Positions 7,131 through 60,142 of a DNA stretch of 62,723 nt are shown in pieces (position 1 is the stretch's first letter; each line of letters begins with the position of its first letter). This stretch comes from Fimbriimonas sp. (lineage in GTDB: Bacteria; Armatimonadota; Fimbriimonadia; Fimbriimonadales; Fimbriimonadaceae), in assembly GCA_031292555.1 (NCBI GenBank), contig JARLGV010000041.1, positions 1 through 62,723 of the forward strand. The letters run 5' to 3'. A model generated the notes under the pieces. It made no database searches and was not told the DNA's origin. It saw only the letters and a list, made by a program, of their open reading frames with translations. Both the position numbers and the translations under genes were made by a program.

Positions 7131-7511
7131 CTAGACCGCCGGTTTTGCCTTGGCGACGGTCCACACCAGTAGCGCCCATCCAGCCAGGAAGCAAGCACCG
7201 CCAAGCGGCGTGATGGCGCCGAGCCAGCGGATACCGGAGACGGCGAGGATGTACAGGCTTCCGGAAAAGATCAGGACGCCGAAATAGATGAGCCAGCCCG
7301 ACGTCTTGACGCGGGGATCAGGTACGTGCGCGGAAAGGACGCCGATCAGGATGAGGGCAAGGGCATGCGCCATCTGGTACTCCACGCCGGTATGCCAGAT
7401 CTGTAGAGATTCGGGACCGATACGCTCGCGCAGGGCGTGGGCCCCGAAGGCGCCGAACGCAACGGCGAGGAATGCCAAGGCGCCGCCTAACGAGACGAAC
7501 GTGCGATTCAT
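7131..7511 (-). CDS. DUF423 family small integral membrane protein
   Basis: The 126-residue protein has four hydrophobic segments and the family's N-terminal signature GAFGAHALRERI. DUF423 (YgdD-like) proteins are inner-membrane proteins with no established biochemical function. The start at 7511 is chosen over an upstream in-frame start because the first membrane helix then begins immediately, as in homologues. TACCCT lies six bases upstream, consistent with a leaderless start. The gene points the same way as the M14 peptidase but is separated from it by 60 bp. Confidence 0.88.
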   Translation of the reverse strand: MNRTFVSLGGALAFLAVAFGAFGAHALRERIGPESLQIWHTGVEYQMAHALALILIGVLSAHVPDPRVKTSGWLIYFGVLIFSGSLYILAVSGIRWLGAITPLGGACFLAGWALLVWTVAKAKPAV

Positions 7512-7523
7512 GCCTATAGGGTA
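7512..7523 (-). promoter_or_regulatory. Candidate leaderless -10 element (TACCCT-N6-ATG)
   Basis: On the minus strand TACCCT (7523-7518) is separated by six bases from the ATG of the DUF423 gene. No ribosome-binding site is seen. It matches the pattern at other starts in the window. Confidence 0.4.
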
Positions 7524-7598
7524 CCGGGGAGCCGAATAGGGGACAGTCGATCGGGCGACAACTGGAGATTGAGTTCTGGGTGCCCCTGAACGCGAAAG

Positions 7599-7631
7599 CG
7601 CCGGCATTTCCGCATTTGCGGAGCCGGCGCC
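7599..7631 (-). terminator. Stem-loop after the repeat-protein gene
   Basis: GCGCCGGC (7599-7606) pairs with GCCGGCGC (7624-7631), and inner arms TCCGC and GCGGA pair around an ATTT loop, giving 13 pairs with a small bulge. It lies 44 bp downstream of the repeat-protein stop on the minus strand. Confidence 0.6.
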
Positions 7632-7674: not shown

Positions 7675-9063
7675 CTAATTACGGCGAACTCGAATCTCTT
7701 CGCCGTTGATCTTCAGGTCGATGTCAAATTTGCCGTCGAACTGGTCAAACATCGCCTTCTGGTCGCGATCAAGGTCGCTGTACCAAACGTAGCCCTGCTT
7801 CTTCTGCTCATCCCTTTCGGCCGGAGTCAGCGAATTCAGGAAACGGCTCGCATCGAACGAGGAAGCCCCTGGGTGCTTCCCGAGGCCCTGGCGCAGGAAG
7901 AGGTGCGGCGTCTGGAACATATTGGAGCCACCTTTCTGCTCTTTCTGCTGCTTGGTGACCTCCTGCTGGATTTGGATCTGGAGATCTTCCATCTGCTTCT
8001 GGAACTTCGGGCCGAACTGGTCCTGCATCTTCTTCTCGAAGTCAGGGCCGAATTGCTTCTGCATCTTGTTCTGGAAGTTCTGACCGAACTGGTCCTGCAT
8101 CTTTTTTTCGAAGTCCGGTCCGAACTGCTTCTGCATCTTGTTCTGGAAGTTCTGACCGAACTGGTCCTGCATCTTCTTCTCGAAGTCAGGGCCGAATTGC
8201 TTCTGCATTTTGTTCTGGAAGTTCTGACCGAACTGGTCCTGCATCTTCTTCTCGAAGTCAGGGCCGAATTGCTTCTGCATTTTGTTCTGGAATTCGGGGC
8301 CAAACTGCTCTTCCATTTGCTTCTGGAATTTAGGCCCGAACTGGTCCTGCATCTTCTTCTCGAAGTCAGGGCCGAATTGCTTCTGCATCTTGTTCTGGAA
8401 CTCGGGGCCAAACTGCTCTTCCATTTGCTTCTGGAATTTAGGCCCGAACTGGTCCTGCATTTGCTTTTCGAACTCGGGTCCGAATTGCTCTTGCATCTTC
8501 ATCTGGAACTTGGGGCCGAACTGATCCTGGATCTTCTTCTGGAACTCGGGGCCAAACTGCTCCTGCAGTTTCTTTTGGAACTCCGGCCCGAGGCTCTTCT
8601 CGATTTCGATGTTCTCGTTCTGGGGTCCGCTGGGAAGGGGTTTGCCCCAGATCACCGATCCCTCGTTCGGAATCTTCATCCAGTTCATGGAGGAGACGCC
8701 CTTCTTATAGACGTGGATTCCGCCCGTCTGCTCCCAATGACCGCCAAGAGCGTTCGCGATCGCGTCAGCCACTGAACCGACCGACTGATTCGCGATGTTC
8801 ATGGTGACGGTCTTGCTCGTAGCCAAGTCGCCGTCGTTGACCACAAAGCTGTAGCCTTGCGACTGGAGCCAGCCGAGTACCTCGGAGACCTTGGCCGAAC
8901 GGAACTGAACCGAGAGCTTCGAATCGTGTTGGTTCTGGGCCAAAACCACGCTTCCTTCAAGCCTGGGAACACCTCCGGCTTTGAGCGCTGGGCCTGTAAG
9001 GACGGCCAATTCTGCCGCCAAGGAAACGCCTGCTATTGTCGCAAGCACATTGTGACGTGCCAT
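7675..9063 (-). CDS. Secreted protein with STN-like domain and 17 tandem 12-residue repeats
   Basis: I do not recognise this as a named protein. The start at 9063 is supported by a strong GGAGGAG site about 9 nt upstream, giving 462 residues. Residues 1-30 look like a signal peptide. Residues ~50-120 (SVQFRSAKVSEVLGWLQSQG, TVTMNI, SVADAIANALGGHW) resemble the secretin/TonB short N-terminal (STN) domain. Residues 158-361 are 17 consecutive 12-residue units of the form FGPxFxxxMxxQ, rich in Gln, Lys, Glu and Met. A Gln-rich stretch follows, then a C-terminal ~50-residue domain (GYVWYSDLDRDQKAMFDQFD). The repeats probably form short helices broken at each Gly-Pro. No secretin barrel or TonB receptor domain follows the STN-like part. 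A cell-envelope structural or scaffold role is a guess. Confidence 0.75.
   Translation of the reverse strand: MARHNVLATIAGVSLAAELAVLTGPALKAGGVPRLEGSVVLAQNQHDSKLSVQFRSAKVSEVLGWLQSQGYSFVVNDGDLATSKTVTMNIANQSVGSVADAIANALGGHWEQTGGIHVYKKGVSSMNWMKIPNEGSVIWGKPLPSGPQNENIEIEKSLGPEFQKKLQEQFGPEFQKKIQDQFGPKFQMKMQEQFGPEFEKQMQDQFGPKFQKQMEEQFGPEFQNKMQKQFGPDFEKKMQDQFGPKFQKQMEEQFGPEFQNKMQKQFGPDFEKKMQDQFGQNFQNKMQKQFGPDFEKKMQDQFGQNFQNKMQKQFGPDFEKKMQDQFGQNFQNKMQKQFGPDFEKKMQDQFGPKFQKQMEDLQIQIQQEVTKQQKEQKGGSNMFQTPHLFLRQGLGKHPGASSFDASRFLNSLTPAERDEQKKQGYVWYSDLDRDQKAMFDQFDGKFDIDLKINGEEIRVRRN
7981..8592 (-). repeat. Tandem 36-bp coding repeat, 17 copies
   Basis: The DNA has a 36-bp period over 612 bp, each unit encoding 12 residues. 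Neighbouring units also alternate as a 72-bp superunit: FGQNFQNKMQKQ followed by FGPDFEKKMQDQ occurs three times in succession with nearly identical DNA. A three-unit block (FGPKFQKQMEEQ, FGPEFQNKMQKQ, FGPDFEKKMQDQ) occurs twice. Near-identity at synonymous sites indicates recent duplication or homogenisation. The repeats are in frame and contain no spacers, so this is not CRISPR. Confidence 0.95.
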
Positions 9064-9205
9064 TCGTAGTAACTCCTCCCGACGCAGTGCGTCGCCATAC
9101 CCTTCACTCGACTTGGTACGCACTCATGCGCCCAAAAACGATTAAAAAGCGATACTGTGCCTGCCCGGGTGAAAGTGCCAGGATTTTTGGAATTTATTGA
9201 CCAAT

Positions 9206-9556
9206 TTAGGCGCCGGTGGCAGAAAAATCGTCGTTCTCGTCTTCCGTGCGGTCGTTCATATGAGGGATCATCGTGTTCCAGACGCCCTGTTCCTTGCGGT
9301 GCTGGATCCGGTCCGCCAGCGAGTGTCTTGCGAGCCGAAGAAATCGAAGCGCCTCAGCGTTCTCTTCGCAGGCGAGTGGGCCGTCCTGGAACCGCTCGAG
9401 CTTATGAATCGCCACATTGATGACGTCCTCGACACGGCACCCATTGATGCCGACTTCCGTCGGGATACCTGATTGAAACGCAACCCGAATATAGGGCGAT
9501 TCGACGATCTCTCCACCGCCGGCAAATGTCGGAGTCTTCACTTCTTCTTTGATCAT
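9206..9556 (-). CDS. Tad1-like (Acb2/Tad1 superfamily) protein, putative cyclic-nucleotide sponge
   Basis: The 116-residue product has the layout I associate with Tad1, a phage protein that blocks Thoeris defence by sequestering the signal gcADPR: a short beta region with FQSG..EVGINGC (27-40), helix VEDVINVAIHKLERFQDG (42-59), then an ENAEAL...RIQHR helix and GVWNT. Tad1 ligand residues recalled from the published structure are Phe82, Asn92, Arg109 and Arg113. Phe56, Asn66, Arg83 and Arg87 here reproduce that spacing exactly (10, 17 and 21 residues). The C-terminus is an acidic tail. The start at 9556 is favoured by GGGAA upstream; an ATG at 9580 would add 8 residues. No phage genes and no intact Thoeris or CBASS genes lie nearby, so its role here is unknown. 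The family call rests on memory and motif spacing, not on a search. Confidence 0.68.
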   Translation of the reverse strand: MIKEEVKTPTFAGGGEIVESPYIRVAFQSGIPTEVGINGCRVEDVINVAIHKLERFQDGPLACEENAEALRFLRLARHSLADRIQHRKEQGVWNTMIPHMNDRTEDENDDFSATGA

Positions 9557-9723: not shown

Positions 9724-11040
9724 CTAAGCAAGTGCCACCACTGACGTCCGGGCCCGAGCCCAGGCAATTGCCAGGACAGCCAATTCGGCGAGCAATGCGC
9801 CGGTTACGGAGACGGCGGAAAGGGTCGGACCGCTCCAGTGAAGCATGACACCGAGGCAGACGCCGCCCGCCAGGACGAACATGGCTCCGAGCACCGCGAT
9901 CAAACGAGAGACGGTCAGATGATGGGCGGTCAGTACGCCTCGAATGTAGGCTTGGGCCGCATCGACGAGGGGCACCGCCGCCGAAAGGAGATAGCACCAG
10001 TGGGCTACCTCAGCGATCGACGGCTTCGCATCGATCAGCCACCTAAAGAGGATGCGATCAAAGCCGGTCAATCCAAGCAGTAGGATCAAACCACTGGAAG
10101 CCAGGCCGACGCCGTAGCTGAACGCTCGCAGGGCGTCGCGCGATGCCTCGCTTCGGTACAAGGTGATCACCACTTCGGGCAAGCAGAACGTCACGGCCCG
10201 GTGGAGGAACAGGACGGCTCCCGCAACCCCGCAACCGGCCAAGGCGAGCACCGGTTGATCCACGCGAGCCAACCCGGCACTGACAACAGGCATCACGAGG
10301 AGATTGACCATCGTAGTCGCCGATAAAGGCACGTGAAAGCCGATGAGCTTGCGCATGGTGAGCGGCTCGGCGCTCGATGGCTCGTTGCCCCTAAAGTGGC
10401 GAACGATCACGTCTCGGCTGAGCCAGTGGACGCAACTCGCCTCAACCGCGACGGAAGAGATGATCGCAATCGACGCGATGACGATGCTGGGCAAGTGGGT
10501 CCAGTGGAAGAGCGAGATGGCGAGGACGGTCAACGTCGCGACCCTCGCACTGGTGCCCAATCCGATCGCACGCGTCCTTCCGTGCCGGATGAGGATTCCC
10601 TGGAGATAGCGCCTCCATCCGATCATGGCGCTCCAAGGTATGAGGATGATCAGTCCGCTCCGAGCGGCGTCGGCAACCGCCGGCTTCACCCCCATGACGC
10701 CTTCGACCACCAGACCGTAGAGGGGAGTGCAAACGACCGCCGCATGGGCGACGGATACCCACATGAGGAGGTACCACACGAATCGGCTCAGCAACTCGTA
10801 CGATTGGCGATCTTTGGATAGGGTCGTCGAGGTCGACAGGAGGTCGATGACCGGGCTTTCGATCCAGATGGCAATCGCCATCAAGATCGGCCAGGCAGCC
10901 GCGTTAATCTCCGGCCGGCTCAACCGATTGATGACTCCCTCGCAAATTGGACCCTCGAGTCCCATGAAAATCCACGAGATGGCGAGCGGGGAGTAGAACC
11001 GGAAGATCGTCTTCGTGGTTAGCGGTTGCGTGCCATCCAA
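9724..11040 (-). CDS. MATE/MOP-like polytopic membrane protein
   Basis: The 438-residue product has about twelve hydrophobic segments. The two halves both begin with a similar motif (FYSPLAISWIFM near the start, GFHVPLSATTMV near 225), which suggests two related six-helix bundles as in the MOP flippase superfamily. It also resembles bacterial relatives of the progressive ankylosis (ANKH) family. It probably sits in the inner membrane and exports or flips a small molecule or lipid-linked substrate; the substrate cannot be read from sequence. The frame opens with TTG at 11040, needed to keep the first helix intact, and there is no strong ribosome-binding site. It is divergent from the Gfo-type oxidoreductase gene. 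Confidence 0.65.
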   Translation of the reverse strand: MDGTQPLTTKTIFRFYSPLAISWIFMGLEGPICEGVINRLSRPEINAAAWPILMAIAIWIESPVIDLLSTSTTLSKDRQSYELLSRFVWYLLMWVSVAHAAVVCTPLYGLVVEGVMGVKPAVADAARSGLIILIPWSAMIGWRRYLQGILIRHGRTRAIGLGTSARVATLTVLAISLFHWTHLPSIVIASIAIISSVAVEASCVHWLSRDVIVRHFRGNEPSSAEPLTMRKLIGFHVPLSATTMVNLLVMPVVSAGLARVDQPVLALAGCGVAGAVLFLHRAVTFCLPEVVITLYRSEASRDALRAFSYGVGLASSGLILLLGLTGFDRILFRWLIDAKPSIAEVAHWCYLLSAAVPLVDAAQAYIRGVLTAHHLTVSRLIAVLGAMFVLAGGVCLGVMLHWSGPTLSAVSVTGALLAELAVLAIAWARARTSVVALA

Positions 11041-12416: not shown

Positions 12417-12750
12417 GGCGGTTTCTAGGGTCTCCCTGAGCGAGTGAGCCACCGCCGAAAGCACGAGCAGATCCTCACCGCGGGAAGCTCCCACCTGGGC
12501 GAAGTCCAGCGCTTCCTTATGCCCAATGATCTCCAGGTGCTAAGCGAGCGACCTGCCACCGATTGCGATGCCCCTTTCTATCACGATTTGGGTTTCGCTT
12601 TGTGTGAGCGTATTTGCCCTCGATGGCGGTCGAGTGATGAGTGAGGGCGACCTCGTACCGGTGTCGCAACTCCTCGGTGACCTCAGGCGGCAGAGGCGGC
12701 ATGCCCTGCAGCCAACCTTGCGCGGTCGTGAGTACGGCGAGCGCAATCAC
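12417..12750 (-). pseudogene. Fic/DOC family protein remnant (frameshift and stop)
   Basis: On the minus strand one frame reads LPPEVTEELRHRYEVALTHH and STAIEG. A neighbouring frame continues with NTLTQSETQIVIERGIAIGG, then RSLA, a TAG stop, and HLEIIGHKEALDFAQ. Joined, these follow the conserved N-terminal region of Fic proteins (the HSxAIEGN motif, then REHLE..GHKEAL). At least one frameshift and one in-frame stop break the gene, and the catalytic HPFxxGN region is missing. It opens with GTG directly after the stop of the HsdM-like fragment, as in type I restriction loci that carry a fic gene between hsdM and hsdS. No function is expected from this remnant. Confidence 0.72.
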
Positions 12751-13003
12751 CTAGAGAACATCTGCGGCAAGGTTCGGGCCACGATCTTCGAAAGTGCGAT
12801 TTGCCAGTTCAAGCTCTTTCTGATACTCCTTAGGATGCCAGATGCTCTCGACCAGCACATCTGCACCGGTACTCATCTGCGCAGATACCATGTGTGGAGA
12901 AGGTGAGGCCCTGAACCTCATGCCAATATTCAGCCGCGGCCATGCTCGTGCGGAGTTCGCACCTGGTCTTGCATAACTCTCCTCCGAAGCCCAAATCAGC
13001 ATC
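12751..13003 (-). pseudogene. Type I restriction methylase HsdM N-terminal remnant
   Basis: The minus-strand translation DLGFGGELCKTRCELRTSM then AAAEYWHEVQGLTF aligns by eye with the conserved HsdM N-terminus (LGFE..LW.AADKLR.NMDAAEYKHVVLGLIF). After CADEY the match moves to another frame that reads VESIWHPKE, comparable to the family's DEYRAENVFWVPKE. The frames do not join and no methylase motif (NPPF) remains, so it is broken and truncated. It lies directly upstream of the Fic remnant on the same strand. The alignment is from memory of the family and should be tested by translated search. Confidence 0.55.
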
Positions 13004-13135
13004 CGATCTCGCCTCCCTTCGTACTGAGGCTGGCACGCGAATGAGGCTAGCCATATGTCGGTTCATGGAGGCCAGAGGATGGAGATACGGAACGTCGCGC
13101 GACAACAGGCTGGACTCATTCTCGCCAACGCTTTC

Positions 13136-57851: not shown

Positions 57852-57933
57852 GACAGAAAAAAGGCACGATAGGGGCGACCCTTACCACGCAAAGCCTAGG
57901 GTCTTCGAACCGAAGACAGCCGGGATGCCTGTC
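57852..57933 (+). promoter_or_regulatory. Class I cyclic di-GMP riboswitch (GEMM-I)
   Basis: The GEMM-I pattern is visible. GGCACGATAGGG (57863-57874) has a GCGA tetraloop closing AGGG/CCCT. The conserved CACGCAAAGCC (57887-57897) follows, then P3 stem GTCTTCG/CGAAGAC (57901-57917) and ACAGCCGGGATGCC (57916-57929). GACAG (57852-57856) pairs with CTGTC (57929-57933) to extend P1. The FlgM start has GAGGAG at 57944-57949, about 11 nt after P1, and no terminator lies between. Control is therefore probably at translation. The direction (on or off) cannot be read from sequence. Confidence 0.88.
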
Positions 57934-58282: not shown

Positions 58283-60142
58283 CTAGCGTGCCCGGCTTTC
58301 GGCGTTTTCGATCGCCTTTCGAAGTGTCTGATCCAGGTCACTTTCTGACATTTCCGCTTTGCTGGAATTGCCTATTGCCTCGGCATGGACGTACAACATG
58401 TCAGCGGCCCCAGCCGCAAGAGCATCCATGTCTCGGGCAACCTCGTCTAAATGACCCTTTCTCGCCCAAAGGGGCTCGTCTTGCGCAGCGCGGGCGAGGT
58501 TTTGAGCGTCGATTCGCAGCGAACGGGCACGGCGTCGAACTGACTGAGTTCTATTGGCAGGCTTGCCGGCCAGTTGATTTTCGACAAGTCGACCGTACTC
58601 GGCCTGGGCGCGGAACGCGTCTCGCATGACCCCCGACACGTCTGGGCTTCGCCATAAGGGCCAAGCCAGCGAGACGGCGACCACGAAAATCACACCCAAC
58701 ACGGTTGCCATCGTGCGTATCTCGCCGACCTCATGCTGGGGTACGCCGGCCGCCGAAACAGAGAAGACGACGTACATAGTGATCGCGAGAGCGTAGAGGG
58801 TATAGGACGCCCTGTAGACCGCGTAGGCGAACCAGGCGCTCACCGCAACGAGTACGATGAGCGAACCGGTTGAGGGTCGGAGGGCGGCGTAAACGATCCA
58901 GGCAGCGCCGACGCCGAAGATCGTGCCTGCCGCACGGCCCAGCCCACGGGTCAGCGTGCTCGAATAGTCCGATCGCAAAGTTAATGCCACCGTCAGAGGA
59001 AACCAGTAGCTGTGGCTGACATGGGCAACTCGAGCCATTGCAGAAGCCCCGCCGACCGAAACTGCGTACCGAAAGGCGTGAGATGCCGCCAACCCGCGTA
59101 AATTGCGGCTGTCGAAGATGCCGGTGACAGACTCCCAACGAGGAAGCCAGTGTGAATCCCCCGGTTCCAGTGGGGGATCAGGTTCCATGTCGTTGAGGTG
59201 GGCGAGTTGGTCGTCGATAAGCTTGAGCCAATGCCGCACGTCGCCGACGGTGTGTTCGACTTCACGATCCAGGTCGGGCGTCTCAAGTGCGGCGGAGCCA
59301 TAGTCGCCGTCCGTAATACGTTTTGCACTAACTTCGAGGGCTGTGGCGAGAGTTTCATTCACTTGGGCGAGCCAATCGGGGCAGCAGCCATCCACCTCGA
59401 GGGCCGAATAGGCTCGCGCATAGCCCACCAACGCGGCTCGAACCGTCTCTGCGACCTCAAGCGACCTTTGCATTCGCACGTGTTCGGGCTTCTTGACATA
59501 TCGTTGTGCCTCATCCAGACGGGCGACGGCATGGACGAACGGATCGGAATCTGGGATGTCGCCACCTTCTGTTGAGCGTGCCCGAACAAAGGAAGCCAGA
59601 CCGAAGAAGACATCCGCCATCGCCTTCCTCTCCACAAAGTACGGGTTGATCGGCCAGGCGAGGCTCAATAGTGCGGTCTGAAACAGTCCGCCACACAGAA
59701 CCAGCCCGGCGTTTCCGAGCGGCGATGCCGCCGAACCCGGAATGCCGGTCATGACGATGAGTAGTGCGACCGCCTGAATCGAAACAATGCTGAACGACGT
59801 GCGTATGGCGCCAACCAGGGAGAAGACAAAGGCCAGAAGTGTGACGCCGACGATTGGAATGGCGTCGCCACGATTGAGACCGCAGCCAATTCCGGTTACG
59901 ATAGCGGTTGCGAGGCTCGAAAGCAGCATCTGACGGACCCGGACCGGCTGGATGCCGGTGAAGGAGGCGACTCCCGCATAGAGAGCTCCCAGCCCGACCA
60001 ACGCGCCCCAACCCGGCTTGCCAACCAGAGCGGAAACAAGCATGGGGCAAGCCACGCCGAGTGCGCGGAAGATCGCCGAACCTGGGGTCCACCCCTTTGA
60101 GTTAAAGTGGACGAGACCGCGCATATGCGCTTGCAGAGGCAT
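58283..60142 (-). CDS. FUSC-family membrane transporter
   Basis: The 619-residue protein has two hydrophobic blocks of about five helices each (~25-165 and ~360-510), separated by a soluble helical domain (~175-350). This is the AaeB/YccS layout of FUSC proteins that export aromatic acids or related compounds. The second block (SHSYWFPLTVALTLRSDYSSTLTRG) carries the family signature R-x-D-Y. The likely location is the inner membrane. The usual partner, a membrane fusion protein such as AaeA, is not adjacent, so the transport role is inferred. The start may be at 60142 or at ATG 60124. Confidence 0.82.
   Translation of the reverse strand: MPLQAHMRGLVHFNSKGWTPGSAIFRALGVACPMLVSALVGKPGWGALVGLGALYAGVASFTGIQPVRVRQMLLSSLATAIVTGIGCGLNRGDAIPIVGVTLLAFVFSLVGAIRTSFSIVSIQAVALLIVMTGIPGSAASPLGNAGLVLCGGLFQTALLSLAWPINPYFVERKAMADVFFGLASFVRARSTEGGDIPDSDPFVHAVARLDEAQRYVKKPEHVRMQRSLEVAETVRAALVGYARAYSALEVDGCCPDWLAQVNETLATALEVSAKRITDGDYGSAALETPDLDREVEHTVGDVRHWLKLIDDQLAHLNDMEPDPPLEPGDSHWLPRWESVTGIFDSRNLRGLAASHAFRYAVSVGGASAMARVAHVSHSYWFPLTVALTLRSDYSSTLTRGLGRAAGTIFGVGAAWIVYAALRPSTGSLIVLVAVSAWFAYAVYRASYTLYALAITMYVVFSVSAAGVPQHEVGEIRTMATVLGVIFVVAVSLAWPLWRSPDVSGVMRDAFRAQAEYGRLVENQLAGKPANRTQSVRRRARSLRIDAQNLARAAQDEPLWARKGHLDEVARDMDALAAGAADMLYVHAEAIGNSSKAEMSESDLDQTLRKAIENAESRAR

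Follow-up and report, generated by a model that had tools for sequence, protein, structure and literature searches.

A core chromosomal Tad1-family protein in Fimbriimonas, a candidate host receptor or buffer for an endogenous nucleotide signal

What is a Tad1-like gene doing on a bacterial chromosome? Tad1 is a hexamer made of three dimers that sequesters gcADPR and cyclic di- or trinucleotides. Published accounts place it in phages and prophages (PMC12043709, PMC13282480). The gene that raises the question lies in a stretch of Fimbriimonas sp. DNA of 62,723 nucleotides (the window, by which we mean that whole stretch), and an original prediction had offered three options for it: a captured anti-defence gene, a host buffer that keeps TIR-derived signals low, or a receptor in an undescribed signalling route. 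Here, we propose that its product is a host nucleotide receptor or a buffer of an endogenous signal, that is, a domesticated Tad1-type binder, and we put the probability of this reading at about one half.

An ORF check confirmed the predicted reading frame of 116 residues. The gene and its parts are:

9206-9556, minus strand: host Tad1-like coding sequence, 116 residues, with the ATG at 9556 and a stop codon that ends at 9206 and is counted in the coordinates
9437-9556, minus strand: residues 1-40, the short N-terminal part, with conserved FQxG (27-30) and NG (38-39) loops; low model confidence
9383-9433, minus strand: residues 42-58, hairpin helix 1, with pocket residue F56 at 9389-9391 (AlphaFold2, block pLDDT above 90)
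9287-9367, minus strand: residues 64-90, hairpin helix 2 (AlphaFold2 and alignment)
9359-9361, 9308-9310 and 9296-9298, minus strand: helix 2 pocket residues N66, R83 and R87, respectively
9287-9289, minus strand: clade-specific Q90 in helix 2
9209-9271, minus strand: residues 96-116, a C-terminal extension that ends RTED....FSATGA and is not in phage Tad1
9206-9226, minus strand: FSATGA-stop, whose DNA pattern hits a single time in each of the 20 genomes of the genus

The resemblance to Tad1, first noticed in the sequence, is borne out by sequence and structure searches. A profile match came from PHROG 2428 (1.2e-17) and not from Pfam or NCBIfam, where no model matched the 116-residue protein. 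Against the PDB, phmmer returned CmTad1 (8kbb, 1e-8), phiKZ-type gp184 (2e-8) and cbTad1 (7uav, 0.005). AlphaFold2, given the window protein and relatives' proteins from related loci and modelling a single chain, predicted a confident helical hairpin, formed by residues 42-58 and 64-90 with block means of 91-98, between two ends of low confidence. When this model was compared with the PDB by Foldseek, ranks 1-20 were all Tad1 chains at a probability of 1.00 and the next match had an E of 1.8; across ranks 1-16 the rmsd was 1.0-1.8 over 68-75 residues. VIA-align ranked gcADPR-bound cbTad1 first (Z 10.2, 97 residues, rmsd 2.7). As middling Z values are common for helical hairpins, we give more weight to the sequence match and to how far unrelated chains fall behind. 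The model has the two-helix C-terminal hairpin of Tad1, and both sequence and fold assign the 116-residue protein to the Tad1 homology family, from which it departs in location. Since its non-phage status is a matter of location, we class it with the Tad1-family homologues and do not call it a phage anti-defence gene.

The likeness to characterised Tad1 proteins (cbTad1, 7uav/7uaw/8smd; CmTad1, 8kbb-8kbd) takes in the hairpin, the pocket Asn/Arg/Arg, the FQxG and NG loops and a C-terminal xGVxxT motif, whereas the host form is a core chromosomal gene and Tad1 a phage or prophage gene. The C-terminal hairpin domain is likewise that of phiKZ gp184, the jumbo-phage Tad1 (8y6v chain I), although there it sits behind a long N-terminal region in a phage protein of 230 residues and the host form stands on its own; phiKZ Tad1 has been reported to be injected (PMC13282480). 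A third phage protein, Acb2 (anti-CBASS 2, T4 Vs.4, 7uq2), is also a helical nucleotide sponge and gave a weak Foldseek match (E 5.4), but it is phage-encoded and smaller, had no phmmer match, and we do not claim that it belongs to the same family.

What has become of the ligand pocket? In the phmmer alignments, F56, N66, R83 and R87 align with the 7uav residues F83, N93, R110 and R114. The original prediction had given positions 82, 92, 109 and 113, which have the correct spacing and each fall one below the chain numbering, a uniform offset that fits an extra residue at the start of the 7uav chain. We take these F/N/R/R positions of cbTad1 to be the gcADPR ligand residues, and PDB titles name cbTad1 as solved with gcADPR. 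The pocket residues are kept, as had been predicted: none of the 44 host copies varies at N66, R83 or R87 (97 of the 98 phage copies have all three), and position 56 is mostly aromatic, being F in 23 host copies, Y in 17 and H in 4.

Other positions set the host copies apart from those of phages. Position 90 is Gln in all host copies and Arg or Lys in 91 of the 98 phage copies, positions 61, 77, 79 and 86 likewise distinguish the two, and host helix 2 is unusually Arg-rich. The host N-terminus is about 25 residues shorter than that of phage Tad1, with a median of 27 residues ahead of Q28 against 51, and the [AG]xHx[FYWM] motif of the N-terminal part occurs in no host copy against 69 of the 98 phage copies. 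In the window protein the 27 residues ahead of Q28 have low pLDDT and no predicted strand of at least 3 residues. With the N-terminal wall of the pocket shorter and its model of low confidence, binding may have been lost or changed. At the other end, a median of 20 residues follows T95 in host copies against 3 in phage copies.

Across the genus this C-terminal extension ends in RTED....FSATGA, the FSATGA tail being invariant, and the same ending with a final Ser (FSATGS) occurs in one species of another genus (genome G064, locus L162). The DNA pattern for FSATGA and a stop has exactly one match per genome in 20/20 genomes, always in the Tad1-like gene, and its codons differ synonymously between copies. 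We considered a shared sorting tail and rejected it, as the pattern is found once per genome and in the Tad1-like gene only. Such extreme C-terminal conservation in an otherwise variable protein suggests either that a partner recognises the tail or that the tail has a set position in the oligomer. Tail-less forms exist as well. Second Tad1-like copies without the tail (loci L052, L154 and L160, in genome G002 and genera g17 and g47) are paralogues within the class. Genome G025 carries a tail-less form (L048:9840-10133) where the genus has the tailed form; it groups within the genus by its ribosomal proteins, which would mean loss of the tail or replacement of the gene in place.

Could the tail be the working part of a protein that no longer deals in nucleotides? 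The arginines would then be structural, or would bind RNA or protein, on a Tad1-fold scaffold with some other job. The invariant tail and the reduced N-terminus would both suit such a scaffold, as would the arginine content of host helix 2, and the conserved residues might serve the oligomer. What speaks against it is the absence of drift at N66, R83 and R87 although the copies differ at half of their positions, and we therefore hold it to be rather unlikely.

If the protein does bind a nucleotide, the next question is where that nucleotide comes from, and here the distribution of immunity and signalling genes is informative. Six families (TIR_2, TIR (PF01582), STALD, SMODS, GGDEF and DAC) were searched across the 20 genomes of the genus. 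TIR_2 matched in 14/20, leaving 6/20 gene-bearing genomes without a match, and TIR (PF01582) in 7/20; the ThsA-type STALD domain and the SMODS domain of CBASS cyclases were each found in 1/20, GGDEF in 16/20, and DAC, the c-di-AMP cyclase domain, in 20/20. TIR and cyclase genes of other families may have escaped this search. The genome from which the window comes has twelve TIR_2 matches, its TIR proteins comprising ThsB_TIR + TIR_2, TIR-AAA_35, TIR-WD40 and TIR-TPR architectures, and no STALD domain. On its contig C134, two TIR genes are adjacent (L340:6296-8244, minus strand), one of them ThsB_TIR + TIR_2. Three TIR-AAA_35 proteins in one genome (L342:3352-5418, L343:3760-5217 and L345:3812-5287) make up an expanded STAND-like TIR set.

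These TIR proteins, above all the ThsB_TIR + TIR_2 and TIR-AAA_35 ones, would give work to a host buffer that soaks up leaked gcADPR or cyclic oligonucleotides and thereby holds immune effectors back until infection, and the pocket residues equal those of gcADPR-binding Tad1. A buffer of this sort, however, is expected to come and go with its signal, and the gene is kept by species without TIR_2 (6/20), without STALD (19/20) and without SMODS (19/20), so that we consider it unlikely. As an account of the gene's presence, co-occurrence with immunity was rejected: the gene is not tracked by TIR_2, TIR, SMODS or STALD, nor fully by GGDEF. Because ThsA, CBASS cyclases and TIR do not track it, canonical immunity fails to explain its core status; that the gene outlasts Thoeris and CBASS argues against a role in tempering their signals and for an endogenous ligand. 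DAC does track the Tad1-like gene, but so many bacteria make c-di-AMP that the presence of its cyclase is no more than permissive.

Is the gene then the host's own? Its neighbours in the window are:

9724-11040, minus strand: multi-span membrane protein, MATE/PST transporter-like, upstream neighbour; no Pfam match
7675-9123, minus strand: secreted-looking protein, downstream neighbour, in which an STN-like segment and an array of 36-bp repeats occur
7131-7607, minus strand: DUF423 membrane protein, third gene of a partly conserved block

No tRNA and no phage-type gene adjoins the Tad1-like gene. No upstream regulatory element is conserved among the window's nearest relatives, the one promoter-like match is weak and lies inside the gene itself, and no terminator-like site was found at it. 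The MATE/PST-like neighbour recurs near the gene in eight compared loci, and counterparts or variants of the STN-like repeat protein stand at the same place in relatives. A partial synteny, with the MATE-like transporter upstream and an M61 peptidase, the STN-like protein and DUF423 downstream, is shared by various members of the genus and by G025 of the neighbouring genus. Other sub-clades have neighbours of their own, for example putative mutL, ruvC and dprA; neighbours differ between clades, and there is no consistent operon partner. Phage genes were seen near none of the inspected copies, which upholds the original placement of the gene outside any prophage. A prophage or satellite was rejected in the genus by synteny, by presence in 20/20 genomes and by congruence of distances.

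Other features of the window deserve mention in their own right. In the STN-like protein (7675-9123, minus strand), a 12-residue unit (GPEFQKKMQDQF type) is repeated about 17 times after the STN-like segment, and TRF places a repeat array with periods of 72 and 108 at 7990-8591. A decayed restriction locus had been proposed nearby. At 12517-13105 (minus strand) there are short broken frames, one with a Fic-like stretch, HSTAIEG. Two of the fragments were scanned against Pfam without a match, which leaves both Fic and restriction decay unconfirmed. A c-di-GMP-I riboswitch at Rfam gathering level lies at 57853-57932 (plus strand), with ORFs of at least 120 residues near it at 58283-60142 (minus strand) and from 60417 (plus strand).

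All 20 genomes of the genus, a group of soil and water bacteria with F. ginsengisoli among them, carry the gene as one close copy each, and one of them has an additional tail-less copy. The statement that the gene stands alone is true of the window, but this is a core gene in 20/20 genomes and not a lone capture. In the class Fimbriimonadia it is present in 67/113 genomes and 26/47 genera, whereas the rest of the phylum yielded no further copies among 291 Armatimonadota genomes, and the gene is confined to two families. The nearest non-host relatives are phage proteins, at below 60% identity. Within the genus, distances between Tad1-like proteins follow those of seven sense-strand ribosomal proteins (Mantel r 0.877, p 2e-4, 19 genomes), and dN/dS is 0.03-0.07 in six informative pairs. 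Among 15 genomes of other genera there is no correlation with ribosomal distances (r -0.16); vertical descent across the class is accordingly unsupported by the distance test outside the genus, which has only about 100 residues to resolve it, and the mismatch, together with the patchy presence, makes transfer or paralogy within the class possible.

A tree built from 142 proteins groups all 44 host copies in a single clade (SH-aLRT 98) with a long stem, the inner forks being weak because the alignment has few columns. The single clade and long stem probably reflect one old transfer into the host lineage. To that extent the captured anti-defence gene of the original prediction survives; what does not is any recent capture, since the gene is now core, vertically inherited in the genus and under strong purifying selection. 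That all close non-host relatives are phage-borne might still favour an anti-defence gene retained by a cryptic mobile element or satellite, but the lack of phage genes near inspected copies, the partial synteny, the ribosomal-like distances in the genus and the 20/20 presence make this very improbable, and within the genus it is already largely refuted. We know of no phage- or competitor-delivered TIR or cyclase effector for these bacteria. Protection by a host sponge that blocks the products of such effectors would draw on the broad ligand range of known Tad1 proteins, which bind several cyclic dinucleotides, some weakly (PMC12043709), but universality and strong purifying selection better fit a housekeeping role, and we give it hardly any credence.

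In light of this, what might the role of the protein be? We return to the reading proposed at the outset, in which the host uses the protein to receive or buffer an endogenous nucleotide signal. The Tad1-like gene would have entered an ancestor of some of the Fimbriimonadia once, and the lineage retained it on the chromosome, as we observe in the genus. With the hairpin, Asn66, Arg83, Arg87 and a mostly aromatic position 56 all kept, the host protein has most likely retained the ability to bind an adenine nucleotide, cyclic or cyclised, presumably as an oligomer. The gene is universal in the genus, whereas ThsA, SMODS cyclases and TIR are each missing from some genomes, which makes an endogenous signal a more likely ligand than one of infection. 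One candidate is c-di-AMP, whose cyclase is present in 20/20 genomes. The trimmed N-terminus, the Arg-to-Gln change at position 90 and the FSATGA-COOH tail may together have altered ligand preference, and a protein partner could read ligand occupancy via the tail, in which case the protein would be less a plain sponge than a receptor or adaptor. The His found in place of F56 in 4/44 copies counts against this explanation.

A more specific version is possible, although we advance it only tentatively: a dedicated receptor derived from a phage sponge would bind an endogenous messenger and relay this to a partner through FSATGA-COOH, outside known immunity. Of the three options first raised for this gene, the receptor in an undescribed route is now the stronger, helped by the invariant tail.

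How does this compare with what is known? The searched literature, mostly without subscription papers, contained no host-owned Tad1, a weak sign of novelty. In the Panoptes system OptS/OptE, too, nucleotide pools and sponges are at the centre of a host strategy (PMC12657218), but that sponge belongs to the phage and its action is what the host detects, whereas in Fimbriimonas the sponge-type protein is the host's.

If our reading is true, either a host has put an anti-immunity protein to use in signalling of its own, or the phage proteins derive from host receptors. Armatimonadota would then be expected to have a nucleotide signal, which could be searched for with the Tad1-like protein as bait, and F. 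ginsengisoli Gsoil 348 is a cultivated strain that carries the gene. A Tad1 match in a bacterial genome, moreover, need not imply a prophage or an anti-defence gene.
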